A stretch of 64,000 nt of DNA from Owenia fusiformis (taxonomy: Eukaryota; Annelida; Polychaeta; Sabellida; Oweniidae): assembly GCA_903813345.2 (NCBI GenBank), contig CAIIXF020000011.1:21189754-21253753 (forward strand). The letters are read 5' to 3'. Position numbers and translations under genes: made by a program. Position 1 is the first letter of the stretch, and each line of letters opens with the position of its first letter. This document shows positions 1,694 to 17,761 of this stretch, piece after piece. The notes below the pieces were generated by a model that was given only the letters and a program-made list of their open reading frames with translations, was not told the origin of the DNA and searched no databases.

Positions 1694-4600
1694 ATGGATG
1701 AGTTTAACAAAGAGCTGTTTCCAGATGGACCCTTTGACTTCTGTAAGCTTAATTACTCTATAATTACCTGTACCGGTATATAACACCTGCAGGTCTGTAG
1801 CCAGGGGGTCAAAAATTCTTTCAAAATCATGCAGTTTTTCCCCTTTTTAGACCTTTCCAGTTAATTTTGGCCATAATTGTCGAATTTGAACTTCCAATAT
1901 GGGCCTGCACTGGCACAAGAAATTAAAGTGGGGATCAGTCAAGGGGAAAATAATTGGAAGCATACCGAATTGATATTTGTTTTTATCGCACCCTAAGGTG
2001 TTATATTGTAATCAGTTTGCCGGGCAGTTTGGCGGGCGGGCGTCCCAAATAATCTTGTCTATAGGTTTCCAGCCAAACCGTTTGAGGGATTCATTTGAAA
2101 TTCTCAGGGATGTTTCTACCTATAAAAGTTTAGAACTGATTAGTTTTTCGGCATTCTTGGTAAATGTTAAGGTGGCCATTTTGTCCTAAAATCGTGTCTG
2201 TGAAGGCTTGTTTTAATAAATAAAAAAGAATTTCCCATTGAGAGCAATGTTAAATTAAAACATTTTTTTAGAAATAACTAAACGGTCAATCTTTCCAATT
2301 TTCACATATTTTGTATATTTACAATTATTATTTCAGTTTATCTTTTACCAGGATTTTTTTCAGGAAAATCTGAATTGTAGAAAAAAAGCTGATATACTGA
2401 ACTGTGAAGTAATACCTTAAAATGTGTCTCTTGAGGGTTGTTTACAGGTTTCATGGATTCATGCAAAAATTTTAGAGATGTTTCTATGGAAAGTTTAGAA
2501 CCGATTAGTTTTTAGGCAGTCTGGGTAAATGTTAAGGTGGCCATTTTGAATTTTCCATCCCGTAAAGTGTATTCTTTTCAAGTTTGCAATTCTGTTCACC
2601 CTGTGGCTTGTTGCTATTTTGATAAAATTGTTATATTCTTAAATATCATTAAATTTGTGCCAGTGTCTAAAGTAGTAGTGTGATAATTACTCACTGAATA
2701 GGTAACATCATCCAGTGCATAGCTTCGTCAAGTTGACTCTAGTTTCTAGTTGGCACATTGGAAGTTTACTCAGTGACAAATTGAATGAATACTTGACTTC
2801 TCTCGACTCACATCCTTTATTGCTTTTACACATACCCAATTTTACACATACATGAGCCATTTACTCCCATTGTGTGTTGAGCCTGGTTGATTTCATCAGT
2901 TGTTCAGATTTAATGTTATTCAAGTAAAACTTCAAATCATCAGTATTAAATGAATGTACCTTTTTTGTTTTTCCAGCTAGCGACTCGGATGATGGAACTG
3001 GAAAATTGAACTTTGACTTTCCTCACCATGAGTTGGAATCGGCGAAAGGTGAACTCTCCACACCAGAAAAGAATGACCTCCACAGTCACCTAGATAGCCT
3101 AGACACAGATTGGATCATAGATAATATCGAAGCAACTGGCAGTTCGATGCCACAAAAGCCACCAACATTGGATTGGTTAATGGAGCCTGCTACGACAAAA
3201 TCCCAAGCTTCTGATTGGTTGTTCCAACATTCCCAACACCCAGCAAGTTCTAAGGAAGCTGACTTTTTGTCAGGAAAAACTGAACAACACACCTCAAAAA
3301 CTAAAGAGCCTGGTTGGTTTATTGGTAAATCAGAGCATCCAATCACAAAGCTACCAAGTCCTAATTGGATGACAGGAACTAGTGCTGGAGTGAATCCAAA
3401 GGAGGATGATTGGCTGAAGGAAGGACCAATACAATCGCTTCAAAAGTCAAAAGATTCTGATTGGCCAAAACATAACATCGCAAGTACAAAGACTGAATCT
3501 GCTTGCCTACTTGAAAAGGGCGAACAGTCATTCTCCATGTCTAAAGTGTCTGAATGGAAACCAGAAAGAGCCCCTCCTAAAAACTTGAAATCTCCAGAAT
3601 CTCTGCCAATACCAGTGAACACATCTCCCGTGACAAAGAAAGAGCCAGAGTGGTTCAAACAAAGACCTAAACAAACTTCAAGTATTTTCAAGTCTAAAAC
3701 ATCTAGACAAAAATCAAAAAATCCCATAAATAAAACAATAGAAGTACCCCAAGATGCTTTCTCTATAAGCCATCTAGATGAAGACACTGATTGGTTAAAT
3801 CAGAAACAACATCAATCTTTCGACCAAATGCCTCACTGGAAACCTTTAAAGAAATCCCCTGATTGGTTAAAAAACAGTGCAAGCCCACCCCCGAGTGCAA
3901 TCCAAAAACCTGATTGGATAACAAAAACAGATTTGAATTCTCCTCCCTTGGATGTGAGTAATAAACTAAAAAGGACAAAATCTGTTCCTAATAAACGTAA
4001 AAAATCGCAAGAAGATCCAGCATGGTTAACTGATCATGTAGGCTCTTCAGACTTGGTGAAGAGTTCATCTAAGAAGCCTAGAAGACGTTCTCAATCAAAA
4101 AAGAGTACAGAATCTCAATCACTCACCTCACCCATTCAACTATCATCAGCTGCACCATCTGACTCTAATATTCAACAGAGTGAATCAAAATCAACAGATA
4201 TAGCATCAACACCTCCCATCAAAGAGGAAGTCGATCTGACTTTTGATCCTATAGATGTATTAAAGAAAATGGCTGATGACTTATCCTCAAATTTGTCCCC
4301 AGCCTCAGTTCCAAGGACCCCAGATTCTAATCTTGTAAAACAAGAAACTGAATCAGAAGTTACTGAAAGCCCTATTACAAAGAAAACTGTTCACCAGGAT
4401 ATTGATAATAACATTAATGAGGATAATGTTAATGATGTTTTTGAAGCAATATCCTCAGATGATGATCTCCATGAGAACACTATAGAGGATGTAGATGAAG
4501 CCGACCAGGGATCAATGAACGACGACTATACATGTAATGTATGTAAGTTTACATTGGATACCAAACAAAACCTTGTCGATCATATGAATATCCATGTAGA

Positions 4601-7600
4601 TATGGTTAACCTTAAGTGTCAGATGTGCCACAAAGTATTCAAACAATCTTCAATATCACGCCATATGCTCACTCATACTACCTACAAAGAATTTGCATGC
4701 TCCATATGTGGGAAAAAGTTTCGCCAAAGTGGAGGTCTTGATCGCCATATGAAATCTCACACGTGTGAACGACCTCATAAATGTGAAGAATGTAACAAAA
4801 CATTTAAATTCGCCAATGATCTCCTTCGTCACTCGTGCACTCATACTGGCATCAAACCATATGAGTGCAGTGAATGCCATAAGAAGTTTGCCCAACTTGG
4901 ACATCTCAGAAGACATGAGAGAACTCACACAGGAGAAAAGCCATTCAAATGTAGTGAATGTGACAAAACATTTGCCCAATCTAGTGTACTTGAAACTCAT
5001 AAACTAGTTCACACAAAACAAATGCCCCATACTTGTACAGATTGTGGCCAACATTTTAGTCGTGTCCATCATCTGCGTTTTCATATAAAAAGTGTCCATA
5101 ATGGTGAGCGTAATTTTCGTTGTCAGATTTGTCCACGATTTTTTAGTGACAATCGTAATTTGAAAAATCATCAGAAGCTCCATGAAGGTAACATAGGTAT
5201 AAAATGTGATGCATGTGGGGGGCTTTTTAGATTTGAACATAATGTAAAAACACACCATAAAGATTGTGTACAATGGCTGGCAATTCATGGTCCAATAGAA
5301 AATAATGAAGAAGACAAACCAATATCTCCTCGAGCCAGCATTTTAGCAAAAAGGCGCAAATCAAAATTAAAGTCAGAAGGTGATTGTGAGTCAGAAGAGG
5401 TTCTTCCCACAAAAGTAAGAAAATGTGTCGCTCAAAATAGCTCAAATGAAACAAAACTTGGAGTGGTTCCAAAAGAGGAAGAAGTTGTACATGAAAATCG
5501 TGGCAATATAAATAGCCAGACCAAGTTTGAAGAAAACACAGACGACCAATCAACCACATCCCTCCATCAATCAACTGCAGAAGAATCAGTTATTGATGAG
5601 ATTGGATTACCAAATACTGAAAGCTCAAAATTAGAAAAACTAGATAGTGTGGAAGGAGAATGCCATGCTGATGAACTTAAGAATATTGACATCAGTGAAA
5701 ACACAGAGATCCAAAAAGTAAATGACATATCCACCATAATTCCTACATCGATGAAAGAAAGATCTGATAGATCTAGCATAGACTCTTCAAAAGAACTTGA
5801 AATAGATGAAGGTGAACCAAACGAAGCTGCACGTAATGAAAGTGCAATTATTGAAAATGCAGCAGATGACATTGAGATGGCAAATAAAACAGCTGAAAAT
5901 ATGAACACAATTGAAGATATTACAGAAGAAATTCCAATACAAGAAACAATACAAGAGAAAGTGAAACGCAAAAAGAAGAAAAAGAAAAAGAAGAAAAAGA
6001 GAAATGATATCGAAATTCATGAGGAAAAACCAAGAATTATCCTGAAACTCAAAAACATATTCAAGAATGCAATACTCAAGCCTGCTGAGATAACATCACA
6101 CTCAGATGATGATGGTGCTTTTGATAATAATGACGAGGACATAATTAATGAGTCAAGCGATGAAAAAAATGATAAATCTGAAGAAATTCCAAGTGAAACT
6201 ACATTGATAGTACAGGAATCTCCCCCCAAAGATCTCCTAATTGAAAATCATTCTTCGGTCGCGCCAAAAACCAAGAAATCGGATTTACTGAATCAGCAAA
6301 CTCCTATTTGCACTTGTGATGAATATGAAGTGTTTGGGGAATGTTCCTGCCTAGAAAATCAAGACAAAGATGAACCAAAATCAAAAAAGAATAGAAAAAA
6401 TGATTTGAAATCAAAAGTCAAGTTGCCTAAAGTTGAATCTGTTCAAATTAAGAAAACAGTGAAAACCAAAAAGGTTGTAAAAAATGAAAAATCAGTTAAT
6501 CATAGTGATGTTGACAAACAGCTGAAAACAGAGAAGAAAACGGTAAAAAAGTTATTGGAGCAAAAGCGCAAAATAACACCACCTGAGAAAATAAAGTCTA
6601 AAAATAACATGAACAAAGAGAAAACTGAAGTGGTCGTTAAACAACCAACTGGAAGTGCAATTAAGAAAGAGGAAAAGATACCACCTAGAAAAGACTTACA
6701 AATATCTATGGCTTCTGTTCAAGAGAGATCTAGTCCTGAACCCAAACAAGTCCCTATGCCACAAACCTCAGACATTCCTACTGTCATCCAGCCTGAAGTT
6801 GAAACATCTTCAAATAAGGATGAACCAAAGAAAGAAACTCTAGAGAATGTAGATGTAAAATCTGAAGACAAGAAAATAGTAAATAAAAGTGGAGAAGGTT
6901 CGATTCCAGGACAACAAAGTAGACGTTTAAGTAGTCCCAATATGAAACTGCTCACCAAAGAAGAGAAGGAGAATAAAGAAAAGCAGATAACGCCAAGAGA
7001 CAGAAAACCTAGCAGCACCATTTTAATAGACCCATTTGCCATGCCAACACCAACTATTGAACGTAAAGAAAACAAATTAATGGATGATCCAGTGAAAAGG
7101 AAGTTCAACACTGCAATTGTGATCGAGCCCACTGTAAATCCTGAGGTTAAGGAACCAAGAGATAGATCAATTAGTGAGTCATCAACTGAAGGAAAGAAGC
7201 TCCAGTCCCCTCCAATACTGAATGAAAGTCCAGTATTTCCTTCAAAGAAGTCAAATAGTCAAGCTCCCATTGAAGGACAGAAAAAGCGTCGAAGGATTAA
7301 TTATGAAAAGCATATCAAGTATAACCGACCTTACTTAGAGACTAAAGAAAAGTATGAGAAAAGTAAGACTATAGCAGAACCTACTTCCCCTACACCCCAA
7401 GTCAAACAAGGACCAATGATGGGATTTGATGCAAACTTTTTTGCTGCAATGTATACTAGTCGTAAACCTGGGGAAGCTATCGATTCAACTTCAAAGCAAT
7501 GGGCAGAGTTTGTAAATGTTCGCCCAGAGGTTAAAAAACCTGAACGTCATGAAAAGCGAAGAGATCATCACCGTAAAAGGGAACATGATTCACGTCATCA

Positions 7601-10124
7601 TGGTCACAGACATAGACATCGAAGATCAAGTGATTCTTCACATCATCGACATAAACATAGAAGTCATCACCGTCACAGGAGTAAATCACATCGAAGATCT
7701 GGTGAAGAAAGAAAGAAACATCAAGAAGAAGCAGAGGAAGTTGAAACTGAAGATCCCCAGGCTGAAGAAGTAGATGCAGCTGAAGAGAATATTGAAGAGA
7801 ATACTGGTGAGGAGAGCCAAGATTATGGTGAACCACCTGAACTTGAACCAGAAACATATGAGACATCAGCTAGTTCTAGCATAATATCATCTAAACCAAG
7901 GAGATCCAAGAAAAGAAAGCCAAAGTATACTGATGATGTGGAAGAGATTGACAACTCTGTTGAAGGGGAGGTTCAAAATGATGAGGACCTAACTAATGAT
8001 GGTGATCACAACGAAGGTGCTGACATCCCAATTGAAGAAACAGATCAACAAGAGGATGTTGAAGAAAATGAAGCTAAACGTAGACTGAGATCTAGAAAAG
8101 ATATAAAAGTCCCAAAAGATCCATATGAACAATATGTAAGTGAAGCGGCAGAAGCTTCAAAGAATAAACCAGATAAAAAGGATTCAAAAGGAAAGACTAA
8201 AGCTTCCAAAACAGGAAGGACTCTTCAAGCAACAGCCTCTGTAGTTGGTCTATACAGGAATGAATCTCTTGTAAAGCCTAAACCAACAGATGAAGAAGGA
8301 AATTCAGAAGATGCTCCAAAGATGTCATTAGAAGAAGTTAAGGTTTTGATGGAGACTCCTGATCGCACTGACTTGCCAAAATCAAAATGTGCTGAATCTC
8401 CTTATGGTCCATATACCATAAGGACTCATCTAGTCAAACCTGTTGATAACACTGAAATCAAAGAAGGTGATGGGATGACAGTTGATTCTGAACACCATCA
8501 GAAATTACGCTCTTTGGAGAGTGTGAAATGTAAGTCTACTGATGTGTTCCTTGGAACTAATACTGATGGGGCAAGTACACTGAACATGTCTTTTTTGTCC
8601 ACTCCTGCTAAGTTTAACTTCAAACGTCCAGGCCTCACGATTAACCAGAACTCAATTGTTGACAAGTTTGCGGAAAGATTTAAACCTTTATCCCCAGACA
8701 GTGAAAATGTGAATCATGCGCCTGTAAATACATCCAATGATTCTAAAGAGTTATCTGAAAATGAGGAAAGTCAATCTGATGACACTAAAATAGTTGAAAC
8801 ACCCGAACAGTCCTCATTTGACATTAAATCCAACGAGGATGATAAAGATTTAGTCCATGATGAGACAAAAAATTTAAAAGTAAAGATTGTTGAAAATAAT
8901 CATGAAAACCTAGTCGAAGATGCAAATGAATCTGTTGAAAGTGATTCTGGAGAATTGGAAATAGTTGAAACAGATATTGCCGATCCACAAGATCCAGAAA
9001 CAGTGATTAGTGAACAAAAACCTGAAGTTAGCTCTGAAAGCAAACCCCAACTAGCAAATCAAGAAATACAACTGGATGTAGACAAGATTAAAAATCTTGA
9101 TGACATTACGAAAAAGGTTGATATGGATGTGGATCATAACAAAGATGATGATTCTGATGACGAAGATGAAGCTGATGACTCATCTGATGAATATTCGTCA
9201 ACAGATGGTGATTACACTGGCGAATCTGAGGACGAGTATTCCAATAATTCAGAAAGTGAAAATGATGAAGAGGAAGATGAGTTGATCATAGATGAAACAC
9301 TTTTCCCTCATCTGAATAAAGTAAAAAGCAAAAACTTGGAGATTATACAAAAAGTTAGAGAACGTTTGAAAAACAATACCTCAAGTTCCCAGTTACCACT
9401 TACTCCACCATCAGCCACAGAAACAGGAACTGAACATAATAAACCAAACAATGGAGAGGATTCCAACGATGCATCAGAATCTACAACTCAACACGGTAAA
9501 GAGGATGAGGCAAGCTCCAATGAAACAACACAACCTGGAGTTCAATGTGATAAACAGCAAGATGGGACAGGATCCAATAAAGCAAAAGAACATGTAGCTC
9601 AAATTGATAAACTGAAAGATAGGTCAGGGTCCAACGAAGCAACTGAACTAAAAACTCAACGAAAAACACATCAACAAAATGCAGAAATCAAGAAGGCAAA
9701 TATACACTCAATATGCAGTCATTTAAGCGAAGTAAAGTCTCATAAAACTTCCGAGGTTAATTGTACGAATCAATATAAGAATGAAACCAACTCTCTATCA
9801 AGTGACATTCTTTCAAAAGGTACTTTTCAAAGTAATCCTCTTTTACCTGATAAGAAATTGAGTATTGAATCGGACAAAATAGAAAGTGAATTAAAAACTG
9901 TTAAACATGATGTGGAAATAAAAGACAATCAAAAATTAACAAATCAGGATGTGAAAACAGAAACAAGTGAGAGTGTATGCTCTAATAAAGGGGAAATAAA
10001 ATCAAATGAGGGTTCGGATGAAACTTTGCCCAGTTCTAAGATATCACACCGGAGGAAATCTGCGACACCCATTAAACAAAGGAAAAGTACTGATTTGAAA
10101 TCTGAAATGCTGGAAATTCCATAA
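1694..10124 (+). CDS. large nine-finger C2H2 zinc-finger protein
   Basis: Coding exons are 1694-1742 and 2977-10124, giving about 2,398 residues. Exon 1 encodes MDEFNKELFPDGPFDF plus one base, ends at a gtaagc donor, and joins in phase to a ttttccag acceptor; the split codon is Ser. The acceptor at 1664-1665 implies a 5' UTR exon further left. Residues ~58-365 are low complexity, with about 16 spaced DWL/EWF-type tryptophan motifs. Nine C2H2-type fingers span residues ~534-780; several have TGEKP-like linkers and the ninth is C2HC-like. After them come a 12-lysine run (~1013-1025), a His/Arg-rich stretch (~1536-1590) and an acidic stretch (~2067-2122). A nuclear DNA-binding regulator is inferred from the fingers. 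I do not recognise an ortholog outside the fingers. The frame is intact. Confidence 0.88.
1743..2976 (+). other. intron 1 of the zinc-finger gene, with repeat copies
   Basis: A GT-AG intron interrupting a codon after its first base. About 1789-1860 resembles the left end of the hAT-like MITE found intact at 47817-48005 (same gtctgtagccaggggg and aatcatgcag text). About 2050-2180 and 2455-2560 are diverged direct copies of one dispersed repeat, sharing gatgtttct, tttagaac and aatgttaaggtggccatttt. Confidence 0.6.
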
Positions 10125-13545: not shown

Positions 13546-14240
13546 AGTTTTCAATGTAGAACATTCTCTGTATGTTATCACTTATTTCAATCCATTTTAT
13601 AAGCGCATGTTTGACCTCAAGTATGGGATAAATATGTGTATTCCAAGCACAAAAGTATTATATACAAAGATATAGAAAAAGATGGACATTTTTGACCCAC
13701 CATGTATATAAGAAAATGACCATTGGGCACATCGAAAATTCAGATGTTCATAGACGAAACATTGTTCCCATGTAATTCATAGGGTAGTCATTTTTCCAAT
13801 GGATTGTAATGTCCCACATTGTCTCAGTGTTCAATGATATCCTGGGGAATTGTGTTAGATTCAATGAGAAGCATTTTTATTAGCTCATGAGTAAGATGGT
13901 TATCACCTCTCCAATACTTGTCAGAAAGCTTGATATTTCATGTTTTGTGATGTTTCTGTTGGTATTGTATTAGAACAACCCAAATAGTGACCACTTTTGC
14001 ACTTTTCCCTCTTTTGGGGGTGGAGGGATATCAGCATGACCAAACTGAAATCAAAAGCAAAATCATTAAGTCCTATTGCTTTTCTTAAAACACTAAAAAG
14101 TACCCAAAAATAATTCTGAGTAAGTGTAAGCTTGGCGAGTGTAAACGGTGATGGAAGTTGACTATTTTCCTTTCAAGATGGAGCTAGACTTTAGAAATAA
14201 GGGACACAGTGAACAATATTGTACATGAAAAATGACTGCC

Positions 14241-17200
14241 TTAAAATTTAACATGCCCCTTGGACATGCCTCGTACCTCAGTCATATCGTCATGCTCTTT
14301 CCAAACAGTTCCTAGATCTTTTGGGTTCCTTATATGCTCATCTCTCCCTAGCACATACATCTCAAGTGCTTTTCTCATCTGTAAACAAGATTCATTTAGA
14401 TAACAATAGCAAAAGTAATTTAATTTTCAACAATCTTTATTTAAGATAGAATTTTACTGTCCATTGCGCGTGTCATCCTAAATCACGCTCTCAGATAGGC
14501 TCTTGTTGGACGAGAATCAATCTTTCTAATTCAATCGTTCAACCCTATTTTTCAAGAAAACTAGATTGTAGGAAAAAAGTGTTATCAACATTGAAACTGT
14601 ACCTTAATTCTACTCAGCATTTTGTTTGCATCATACAGGATTTATTTTTGAGCATTTTAGCTAGAGGTTACAACTTTTTATTAATACTGTGAGTTAGTTC
14701 TAAATTATACCCCTCACAACACCTGAAAGGTGACATACCTGATGCGCACATCTCTGGTGAGGCATGGTCCCTATAGCGGTGCCTAGACCTGGGCAAAGTA
14801 CACTTCTGATCTGATCTGTACTCTCAGCTGTCTCATTATGCTGACTGACTACAAGATATATTTTAAGAACTAATATCTGAATACTACAGTTTTGTATTGA
14901 CCTTCAACATGTAACATATTTAAATACCATAATCTGTTGCCATGGTAACGAATATTGCATCAAATCTGAATGCTTTAAGAAAATGCCTATATGTTAGTGT
15001 TTTACACACAATCAACTGCCATGGTAATTGATGAATCAGTACCTGCTATGATGACTGCACGAAATGTACTATAAGCATTGACTGTTTTTGATACATCTAG
15101 TGGAACACGCATAGTAGGAGCAGATATCATGAATTTGATTGGTTGACCTTCATTGCATTTCGCCCAATCATCTCTCTTTTGGAGCTCTTGTACTTCTTCC
15201 GAGTCAATACCATGCTCAAATGTTGGAATGATCACTGCGTCTCCCTAATAATGAATGATAAGAATAAAGTACAGGTATATAAAAATGCATGATGTGAAAA
15301 GCCCTTTGTTCAAGCGAACACCTTTTCAAATTAAAATTTTGGTATAGAACCTCGACTTGCATTTTATCAGAACCTAGTAATGTGAACACCTCTAAAAAGA
15401 GAACACTTTTAGCAACATTCTTCTTACCACTAATAATTCCCCATACTTTTCCTTCCTAATGACTTCTTGGAGACGTCTCTGTAGCTGCCAGCCAAAATGC
15501 TTGCTATATGCCATATCTATGCCACCATCCATAAAACCAAAACTGTTTGCAGGTGATACCTAAATATTAGTACAAAAGAATCACATGTTACTAAAATCAT
15601 CAAGTCACAAGCTATGTGGGTTTTGTATTTCAGCTCTGTTATTTGAGTCATGACCAGCCATTCAGTGTATGAGTTATACTCGTACATCATCTAACAGTCT
15701 AAAATGTGGCATTACTGAGCATTTGGAAAGTTTAACTTTGCAAATGAAAGAGCATCACAGTTAAATTCAAACACATCTCATCTACTCAAGTAATTTTTTC
15801 AACTAATTATAGATGTCACTTGCACAAAAAATGATAATTAGGAGTCATAATATGAATGATCCAATAAATTGACTGTAAAGAAATAGCCTTGATTGAACAC
15901 AACTTATACAGAACAGGAATATTGATATCTTACTCGAGTCTCTAGCTTACGGAATATAGAGAAGGCTTTGGACCGAAGTAATTGATATCCTACCATACAG
16001 TCAAAACTTCTAAGAAATCACAAAAGGCAAGAACAAAAGAAAAACTGTAACCTGTTGAAACCAAAATCAACTTACAATAGCATCTGCACAGGGAGCTCTA
16101 TCTTTGAAGATGTCACGGCTTTCACAAACCTGCAATGCAAATAGAAGAACAAGGTGAAAAGCTTACATGGCATTTCGATGGAAAGACTTCCATGTAGGAA
16201 GGAAATGACAAGGACATGTCACAAGGCTGAAAGTACAAAACTTTGTGAGAAGACTTGAATCTGAAATTCTGGTTACTTTGATGGATTTTGATGAACTTAC
16301 TCAAGTCAATTCCTTGGGTCATTCAATCCATACACATTTCCGCCATGCCGCAAGTAGTAATCAGTAAATGATTGAATCGTGTATTATGATGATGATGATG
16401 ATGATGATGTACATTCAATTGACAATACTTGTAATTTGTGACTTTTACGAAAACTACAACAATAACTGAAGTGAATACCTCCATGTTCGCATGAATTTTT
16501 TCGAAAGTTTTCTAAAGAGTAGAACACTTAGGGACTCTGTCTCCAGTCTATGACACTGTTCTTACCTGTACTCTATTTGATGCAATGTGCTCCTCAAATT
16601 CTGTTTTCCAAGCAGCTTATCCCGTTCCAGGACTATAGTCCTGTACGGAGCCCATACATTTGCCTGTACGATTACAACTTGGGAGAATTATCTACGCCCC
16701 TTCCACTTAAGAAACCTACCTTAATGCATTCTAGAACTCAAAATGTAACTTCTAATATATTGGAACCGCCGATTGTCTGGGTTAGTTGGCAGAACGAGGT
16801 ATTTTTGTTTCTTATGGCTCTTTTGGTCGAAGTTCGATTAAGATGGCGGTTATAACGGAATTTCCCGAACTCTTCCGTAATAGCACGAACTTGGTTTTTC
16901 GTTACGTCACTTCCGTGTAAAATGGATTTGTCACCGGTAAGAGGGAATTTCGAAAATTTCGGACAATATTTTCAATATTTACTGCCATGTCGACATCCTA
17001 TGCTCTTAACTGTATACCGAATGGTTAAACAATGTTTCTTACCGGAAACAAATCCATTTTACACGAAAGTGATGTTACGAAAAACCAAGTTCGTGCTATT
17101 ACGGAAGAGTTCGGGAAATTCCGTTATAACCGCCATCTTAATCGAACTTCGACCAAAAGAGCCATAAGAAACAAAAATACCTCGTTCTGCCAACTAACCC

Positions 17201-17451
17201 AGACAATCGGCGGTTCCAATATATTAGAAGTTACATTTTGAGTTCTAGAATGCATTGAGGTAGGTTTCTTAAGTGGAAGGGGCGTAGATAATTCTCCCAA
17301 GTTGTAATCGTACAGGCAAATGTATGGGCTCCGTACAGGACCAAAGTCCGGGAACAGGATAACAAGCAGCTATCATTTTCTCATTCCTATCACATAATTT
17401 GAAGACAACATCTTTTAAATTCATGTCAGTTGATTCTACTGCGTCTGCCAT
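14241..17451 (-). CDS. macro-domain protein (ADP-ribose-binding type), exon split by a transposon
   Basis: Minus-strand exons are 17451-17363, 16616-16566 (one ancestral exon split by an insertion), 16129-16076, 15559-15428, 15244-15008, 14840-14739 and 14378-14241. Later junctions are phase 0 with GT-AG ends; the donor after 15008 is weak. Without the insert and one target copy the product is 264 residues. Family motifs are visible: LCDRNEKMIAAW near the N-terminus, VSPANSFGFMDGGID, SAPTMRVP, TVNAY, LCPGLGT and MRKALEMYVLGR. Macro domains of this kind bind ADP-ribose or remove it from proteins; the exact substrate is unknown. The start at 17451 puts the conserved N-terminus in place, although the frame is open to an ATG at 17718. 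If the insert is retained, the frame stops about 30 residues after MIAA. If it is spliced at its junctions, two residues are added. Confidence 0.8.
16387..16409. repeat. (GAT)n microsatellite
   Basis: About eight copies of a GAT/ATG triplet in an intron of the macro-domain gene. Confidence 0.9.
16617..17362. mobile_element. 746-bp palindromic DNA transposon inside a coding exon
   Basis: Its ends are TTATCCYGTTCC in inverted orientation. The arms are about 325 bp (16617-16944 and 17035-17362) with roughly ten mismatches, around a ~90 bp loop. It is flanked by the exact 8-bp direct repeat CAAGCAGC (16609-16616 and 17363-17370). Removing the element and one repeat restores an open macro-domain exon (minus strand: ATG ATA GCT GCT TGG AAA), so the insertion site is coding. 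On the minus strand the last base of one target copy plus the first element base make GT, and the last element base plus the first base of the other copy make AG. It has no convincing transposase. An 8-bp duplication fits hAT, P or Merlin-type elements; the family is not identified. Confidence 0.9.
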
Positions 17452-17761
17452 GCTCTCTGTTATGTCTCTGAAATAAGTATCGATGATGTGGAAATGTATT
17501 GATGGCATATAGCTATGTAAAATACATGAATCATGACCAAATATAAATATGCACCAAGTTTGTTTTGATACGTAAGGAATTCCCCGTGACCTCGTTTTCG
17601 AATTTTTCGTTAGGGGTTTTCCGTAAGATGTTCCAAGGATGGCGTGATATTGTGTTGACCTATCAGTATTTTCGTAATATATGGCCAAAATAAGATCAGT
17701 GAATGCGATAAGAAACATGGGAAGTAAACCATAAAAGACTACAGAAGATATAGATATAAAA
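17452..17761. promoter_or_regulatory. candidate bidirectional promoter region
   Basis: This 310-bp gap separates the proposed start codons of the macro-domain gene (-, 17451) and the ankyrin/SOCS gene (+, 17762). The two genes diverge, so both promoters must lie in or very near this interval. I see no clear core element that decides a start site, and both start codons are inferred. Confidence 0.45.

Follow-up and report, generated by a model that had tools for sequence, protein, structure and literature searches.

Our analysis of the window (the whole 64,000-nucleotide stretch of DNA that was analysed) points to a recent, non-autonomous and nearly palindromic transposon that interrupts coding exon 1 of a macro-domain gene present in a single copy, with a null or strongly reduced allele as the likely outcome, and we give this interpretation a probability of roughly 85%. 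In terms of transposon biology, the insertion is an ordinary recent MITE or foldback element which has probably left a null or hypomorphic and possibly segregating allele. A sequence-only reading had previously offered two outcomes for this site, a transposon-made intron or a null allele; its description of an exonic insertion, a palindrome and a GT/AG pair at the joins stood, while the null alternative was rated the better of the two and the creation of an intron found no support in the tests made. Taken as a young gene-breaking transposon, the case is ordinary.

The exon that the element interrupts is predicted to open the coding region of this macro-domain gene, whose parts were placed on the minus strand as follows.

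16566..17451, minus strand, predicted first coding exon, split by the element (ATG at 17451; native donor CAG/GTAAGA at 16565)
16076..16129, minus strand, predicted exon 2 of the macro-domain gene (sequence prediction)
15428..15559, minus strand, predicted exon 3 of the macro-domain gene, VSPANSFGFMDGG... (sequence prediction)
15043..15244, minus strand, predicted exon 4 of the macro-domain gene (3' end set by CAG/GTACTG)
14739..14819, minus strand, predicted later exon of the macro-domain gene, IRSVLCPGLGTAIGTMPHQRCAHQ (5' end approximate)

With the element and one copy of the duplication removed, the first coding exon comes to 132 nt, is open and reads MADAVESTDMNLKDVVFKLCDRNEKMIAAWKTEFEEHIASNRVQ (MADAV...MIAAWKTEF...NRVQ), in agreement with the earlier claim that the exon is whole without the element. 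When joined, the predicted exons matched two Pfam families, Macro (PF01661, E 3.9e-8) and Macro_2 (PF14519, E 1.7e-6), and a whole-genome tblastn search with them returned six matches, all six at this one locus; on that search we read the gene as single-copy in the genome. Fourteen bacterial relatives were found, and the one whose DNA we translated by eye (L055) continues unbroken across the insertion point. The predicted exon, the Pfam match and this bacterial relative together place the insertion in a predicted coding exon, as is expected of introners. Elsewhere in the window, positions 2928-10124 of the plus strand hold an uninterrupted frame of 2,398 codons in which C2H2 zinc-finger-like repeats, as well as long acidic and basic stretches, were seen by eye.

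The element itself is a 746-bp palindrome whose coordinates in the sequence-only reading proved right to the base, and whose stem, put there at about 325 bp, was measured as two inverted-repeat arms of 326 nt that are 97% complementary (10 of 326 positions mismatched) and lie 94 nt apart.

16617..17362, no strand assigned, palindromic non-autonomous DNA transposon of MITE/foldback type with ends TTATCCYGTTCC, 746 bp
16617..16942, plus strand, left inverted-repeat arm, 326 bp
17037..17362, minus strand, right inverted-repeat arm, 326 bp
16609..16616, no strand assigned, left CAAGCAGC target-site duplication, from sequence
17363..17370, no strand assigned, right CAAGCAGC target-site duplication, from sequence

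The arms supply the terminal inverted repeats that define MITE and foldback elements, and the exact 8-bp duplication CAAGCAGC stands on either side. The element lacks coding capacity, its longest stop-to-stop frame having 103 codons, and the predicted fold of -630 kcal/mol compares with a mean of -213 for 20 shuffles.

Searching the genome (498 Mb in 525 contigs) for further copies, as had been proposed, revealed a sizeable family. The end pattern TTATCCYGTTCCNGGAC has 622 exact occurrences, of which 309 are forward and 313 reverse, and a reversed-pattern control has none; the 40 best-scoring of 811 candidates, the window copy among them, were all 98-100% identical over 746 bp. These 40 were picked without regard to duplication, and 36 of them carry an exact 8-bp duplication, three a 9-bp duplication (L014, L021, L044) and one an imperfect one (L029). 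Across a larger set of 100 copies, 98 have an exact duplication of 8 or 9 bp, the exceptions being L029 and L087; this set, about a third of the family on the assumption of two ends per copy (about 311 copies for the 622 ends), is non-random, as it combines the 40 best-scoring copies of the 746-bp class with 60 others, 54 of which were chosen for duplications of the form G..G or C..C. One copy outside the set (L050) has a duplication that is one base off. Among 63 copies paired from G..G or C..C ends, 34 measure 545-546 bp and 12 measure 746 bp. The family shows two further marks of MITE and foldback elements, namely a duplication of fixed length that differs by site and many similar copies of set length (746 and ~545 bp) without coding capacity. 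The window copy forms a subfamily with seven others and differs from their 8-copy consensus at 3 of 746 positions (one of these differences is common to L011), and we therefore consider it young. Given these ends, duplications and identities, we regard the window element as a member of a young non-autonomous DNA transposon family, and the window insertion may well be segregating.

The same family includes miniature palindromes of 38-46 bp in which nothing but the terminal ~20 bp from either end of the element is present.

Main list of miniature forms: L070, L096, L129, L131, L132, L133, L134
Further miniature forms: L080, L092, L097, L125-L128, L130, L135, L136

Exact 8-bp duplications flank all 17 miniatures with both ends intact, five of which came from a search demanding G..G or C..C on both sides. 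An identical 45-mer was found at seven unrelated sites; the duplication differs at each of the seven, and their flanks show no similarity to one another at E 1e-5. It is possible either that the 45-bp unit is itself mobile or that one internal deletion is recurrent. Forms with a damaged or short second end were also seen, one with an exact duplication GTGTAACA (L144, 34 bp) and two without a duplication (L138, L139), and L137 consists of a single end only. A literature search for phrases on the smallest or shortest MITEs or transposons showed nothing relevant among the papers listed, which is no proof that such forms are unpublished.

Longer copies were inspected for an autonomous partner, and no transposase was seen by eye in the open reading frames of L050, L071, L072, L101, L103 and L118, nor in those of L124, L140 and L163-L166. 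Several of these copies have distinctive interiors. A 3,700-bp copy (L118, G000:C8:5190280-5194379) holds a 761-codon frame that by eye resembles a nested non-LTR reverse transcriptase. At another locus (L163-L164, G000:C3:21149600-21165340), ~15 kb of DNA is inserted in a 746-bp copy, with no frame of at least 120 codons in either half of the insert and with element halves that overlap at positions 82-90. The 1,467-bp copy L072 contains an interior stretch, FGFDLKPEQLQVITN...VLPTG, which we take to resemble a helicase motif, and this interior may represent either a fragment captured from a gene or an insertion nested in the copy.

Approaching the partner from the transposase side, the genome has 13 matches to the P-type domain PF21787 and eight to the MULE domain PF10551. 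Matching TTATCC-type ends were absent within ~1.5 kb on each side at 8 of the 13 PF21787 loci and at 8 of the 8 PF10551 loci, and two PF21787 loci extended to 9.9 kb had none either; the flanks of the transposase loci gave chance-like matches of 16 and 19 bases only, together with partial end-like strings in L160. Neither these loci nor the longer copies inspected yielded an autonomous partner. Some PF21787 copies (L147, L148 and L149, also L146; L161 and L162) are ~99% alike with frames of up to 591 codons, and by this similarity a recently active P-like family is present in the genome, without a link to TTATCC ends.

From the anatomy of the insertion, a transposase supplied in trans would have made cuts staggered by 8 bp in the target, and the CAAGCAGC duplication would then stem from repair of the gaps. 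The T...A termini of the element, meeting duplication ends that prefer G or C, place GT and AG at the joins, and in-frame stops brought by the insertion would leave a null or strongly reduced allele, on an insertion that is probably young enough to segregate. If the element stays in the transcript, the reading frame runs into a stop at codon 61, which belongs to the element's own sequence. A point against loss of function is that the remaining predicted macro-domain exons are open, with canonical splice sites wherever these were located, as would also be expected of a working gene. The comparison of alleles that had been suggested found no second allele in the assembly: an empty site gave 0 matches at up to 2 mismatches, although gaps and excluded stretches in the sequence searched mean that this does not establish its absence.

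We also examined the origin and the strength of the junction GT and AG. On the minus strand the joins read GCTT/GTTATCC and GGATAAG/CTGC, as had been claimed.

17362..17363, minus strand, junction GT, proposed as donor (149th among the 228 GTs of 13900-17600, metazoan splice-site weights)
16616..16617, minus strand, junction AG, proposed as acceptor (206th among the 243 AGs of 13900-17600, metazoan splice-site weights)

The arithmetic offered for this pair is also correct, in that removal of 748 nt would leave 138 nt, keep the frame and add Ser-Ala. A GT...AG pair of this kind calls for a duplication with G at each end (G......G) when read on the gene strand. The duplication here is of this type, and the initial T and final A of the element complete the G/T and A/G joins. 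The frame is kept because the 8-bp duplication minus 2 leaves 6 nt, and as this is automatic it adds no evidence for splicing. Duplications of 36 copies give the family a target preference of S-T-T-W-W-A-A-S, and among the 622 ends the duplication classes are G..G 71, C..C 78, G..C 101 and C..G 41, so that the share of ends with the form needed is 11.4-12.5%. If the two duplication ends were independent, ~64 each would be expected for G..G and C..C; the observed counts are somewhat higher, without a marked excess, and selection for splicing within the family was not supported. Most likely, then, the junction GT/AG pair is a common by-product of the G/C preference at duplication ends. More generally, a family that starts with T, ends with A and makes 8-bp duplications with G/C ends will yield an in-frame GT...AG in about one insertion in 8-9 per strand, and such junctions arise without any splicing. 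Since the target preference alone makes GT...AG frequent, the junctions alone are weak evidence for an introner.

We consider it highly improbable that the spliceosome takes the junction GT and AG, cuts out 748 nt and adds an in-frame Ser-Ala, with the stem pairing the two sites. The GT and AG are correctly oriented and in frame, the joins lie side by side in the predicted stem, and published introners include a family that draws its two splice sites from where it inserted and another that adds codons (PMC9860276). Against this, when all GTs and AGs in 13900-17600 were ranked with metazoan splice-site weights, the junction donor CTT/GTTATC scored -6.3 and the junction acceptor -10.6, compared with +7.0 for the exon's native donor at 16565, the best in the region. 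The sequence-only reading had itself noted a donor that is weak after GT and the lack of a clear pyrimidine tract before the AG; by these scores and the ranks given above, both sites are very weak. In the predicted fold the junction GU is unpaired and the donor from +3 onward lies within the stem, which counts against its use, as does the lack of a marked excess of G......G duplications. The intron idea is sound in principle, but the splice sites here are poor; with the GT/AG attributable to target preference and the frame automatic, the claim of intron creation was not supported, and a newborn intron in an animal gene, in frame by arithmetic and with a long stem offsetting its weak splice sites, strikes us as highly improbable.

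Other copies of the family speak to the same question. Of the 98 copies with an exact duplication, 74 can be read in some frame through 15 codons to either side without meeting a stop. The highest coding score of the 98, 0.229, belongs to the window copy (stop-free random window sites reach 0.17 at 95% and 0.34 at 99%), in a crude scan that has low sensitivity for short exons and whose training set held other exons of the window's gene. In this crude scan no exon insertion was recognised among the 97 other copies, which weighs against intron birth. Similar introns bounded by the termini of the element were likewise not recognised over 98 copies (61 of them with G..G or C..C duplications), at low sensitivity for short exons. 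Ten of the longer ORFs that flank copies with G..G or C..C duplications were run on Pfam, with nothing above the cut-off. One flank (L083) is presumably an SLC17-like exon, its ORF having no Pfam match, and was dropped as an exonic copy given a likely donor, CAG/GTTAGT, ~80 nt before the insertion, which makes the copy look intronic. Another (L111) has a weak endonuclease-reverse transcriptase match at E 0.017, below the cut-off.

Function might instead be restored without the junction sites, through cryptic splicing within the element, translation from a start further downstream or exact excision in somatic cells, and we see only a slim prospect of this. By the metazoan splice-site weights the element does hold good gene-strand donors (CCG/GTAAGA at 17042 and AAG/GTAGGT at 16719), but the stop at codon 61 precedes both and the top acceptor in the element scores only +1.1 (16731, same weights). 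Skipping of the exon would lose the predicted start codon, and the predicted exons offer no further Met in frame until past SPANSFG. That the element was misplaced through an assembly or haplotype artefact, as the many near-identical copies in the genome might allow, is very improbable given an exact duplication specific to the locus, two substitutions absent from the seven nearest copies and a window without N.

A recent insertion of a non-autonomous palindromic transposon, our preferred interpretation, invites comparison with two known systems. The first is Galileo of the P superfamily, which we take to be foldback-like. The window family resembles it in having inverted repeats with conserved ends, non-autonomous copies and a palindromic target preference, and its duplications of 8, sometimes 9 bp compare with 7-8 bp for Galileo (PMC4168063). 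The ends differ, those of the window family being TTATCC, and no transposase was linked to the family at the loci checked. The second is the introners (Gozashti et al. 2022, PMC9860276), which the window case resembles in that a DNA transposon of short length interrupts a coding exon, with GT/AG at the duplication; unlike introners, the window family has neither a recognised set of similar introns nor any further copy recognised in an exon, and its junction sites are very weak. Among animals and land plants, introners are reported from two groups, both animal (PMC9860276). If splicing at these junctions were shown, the gain of an intron would have been observed here at an early stage.
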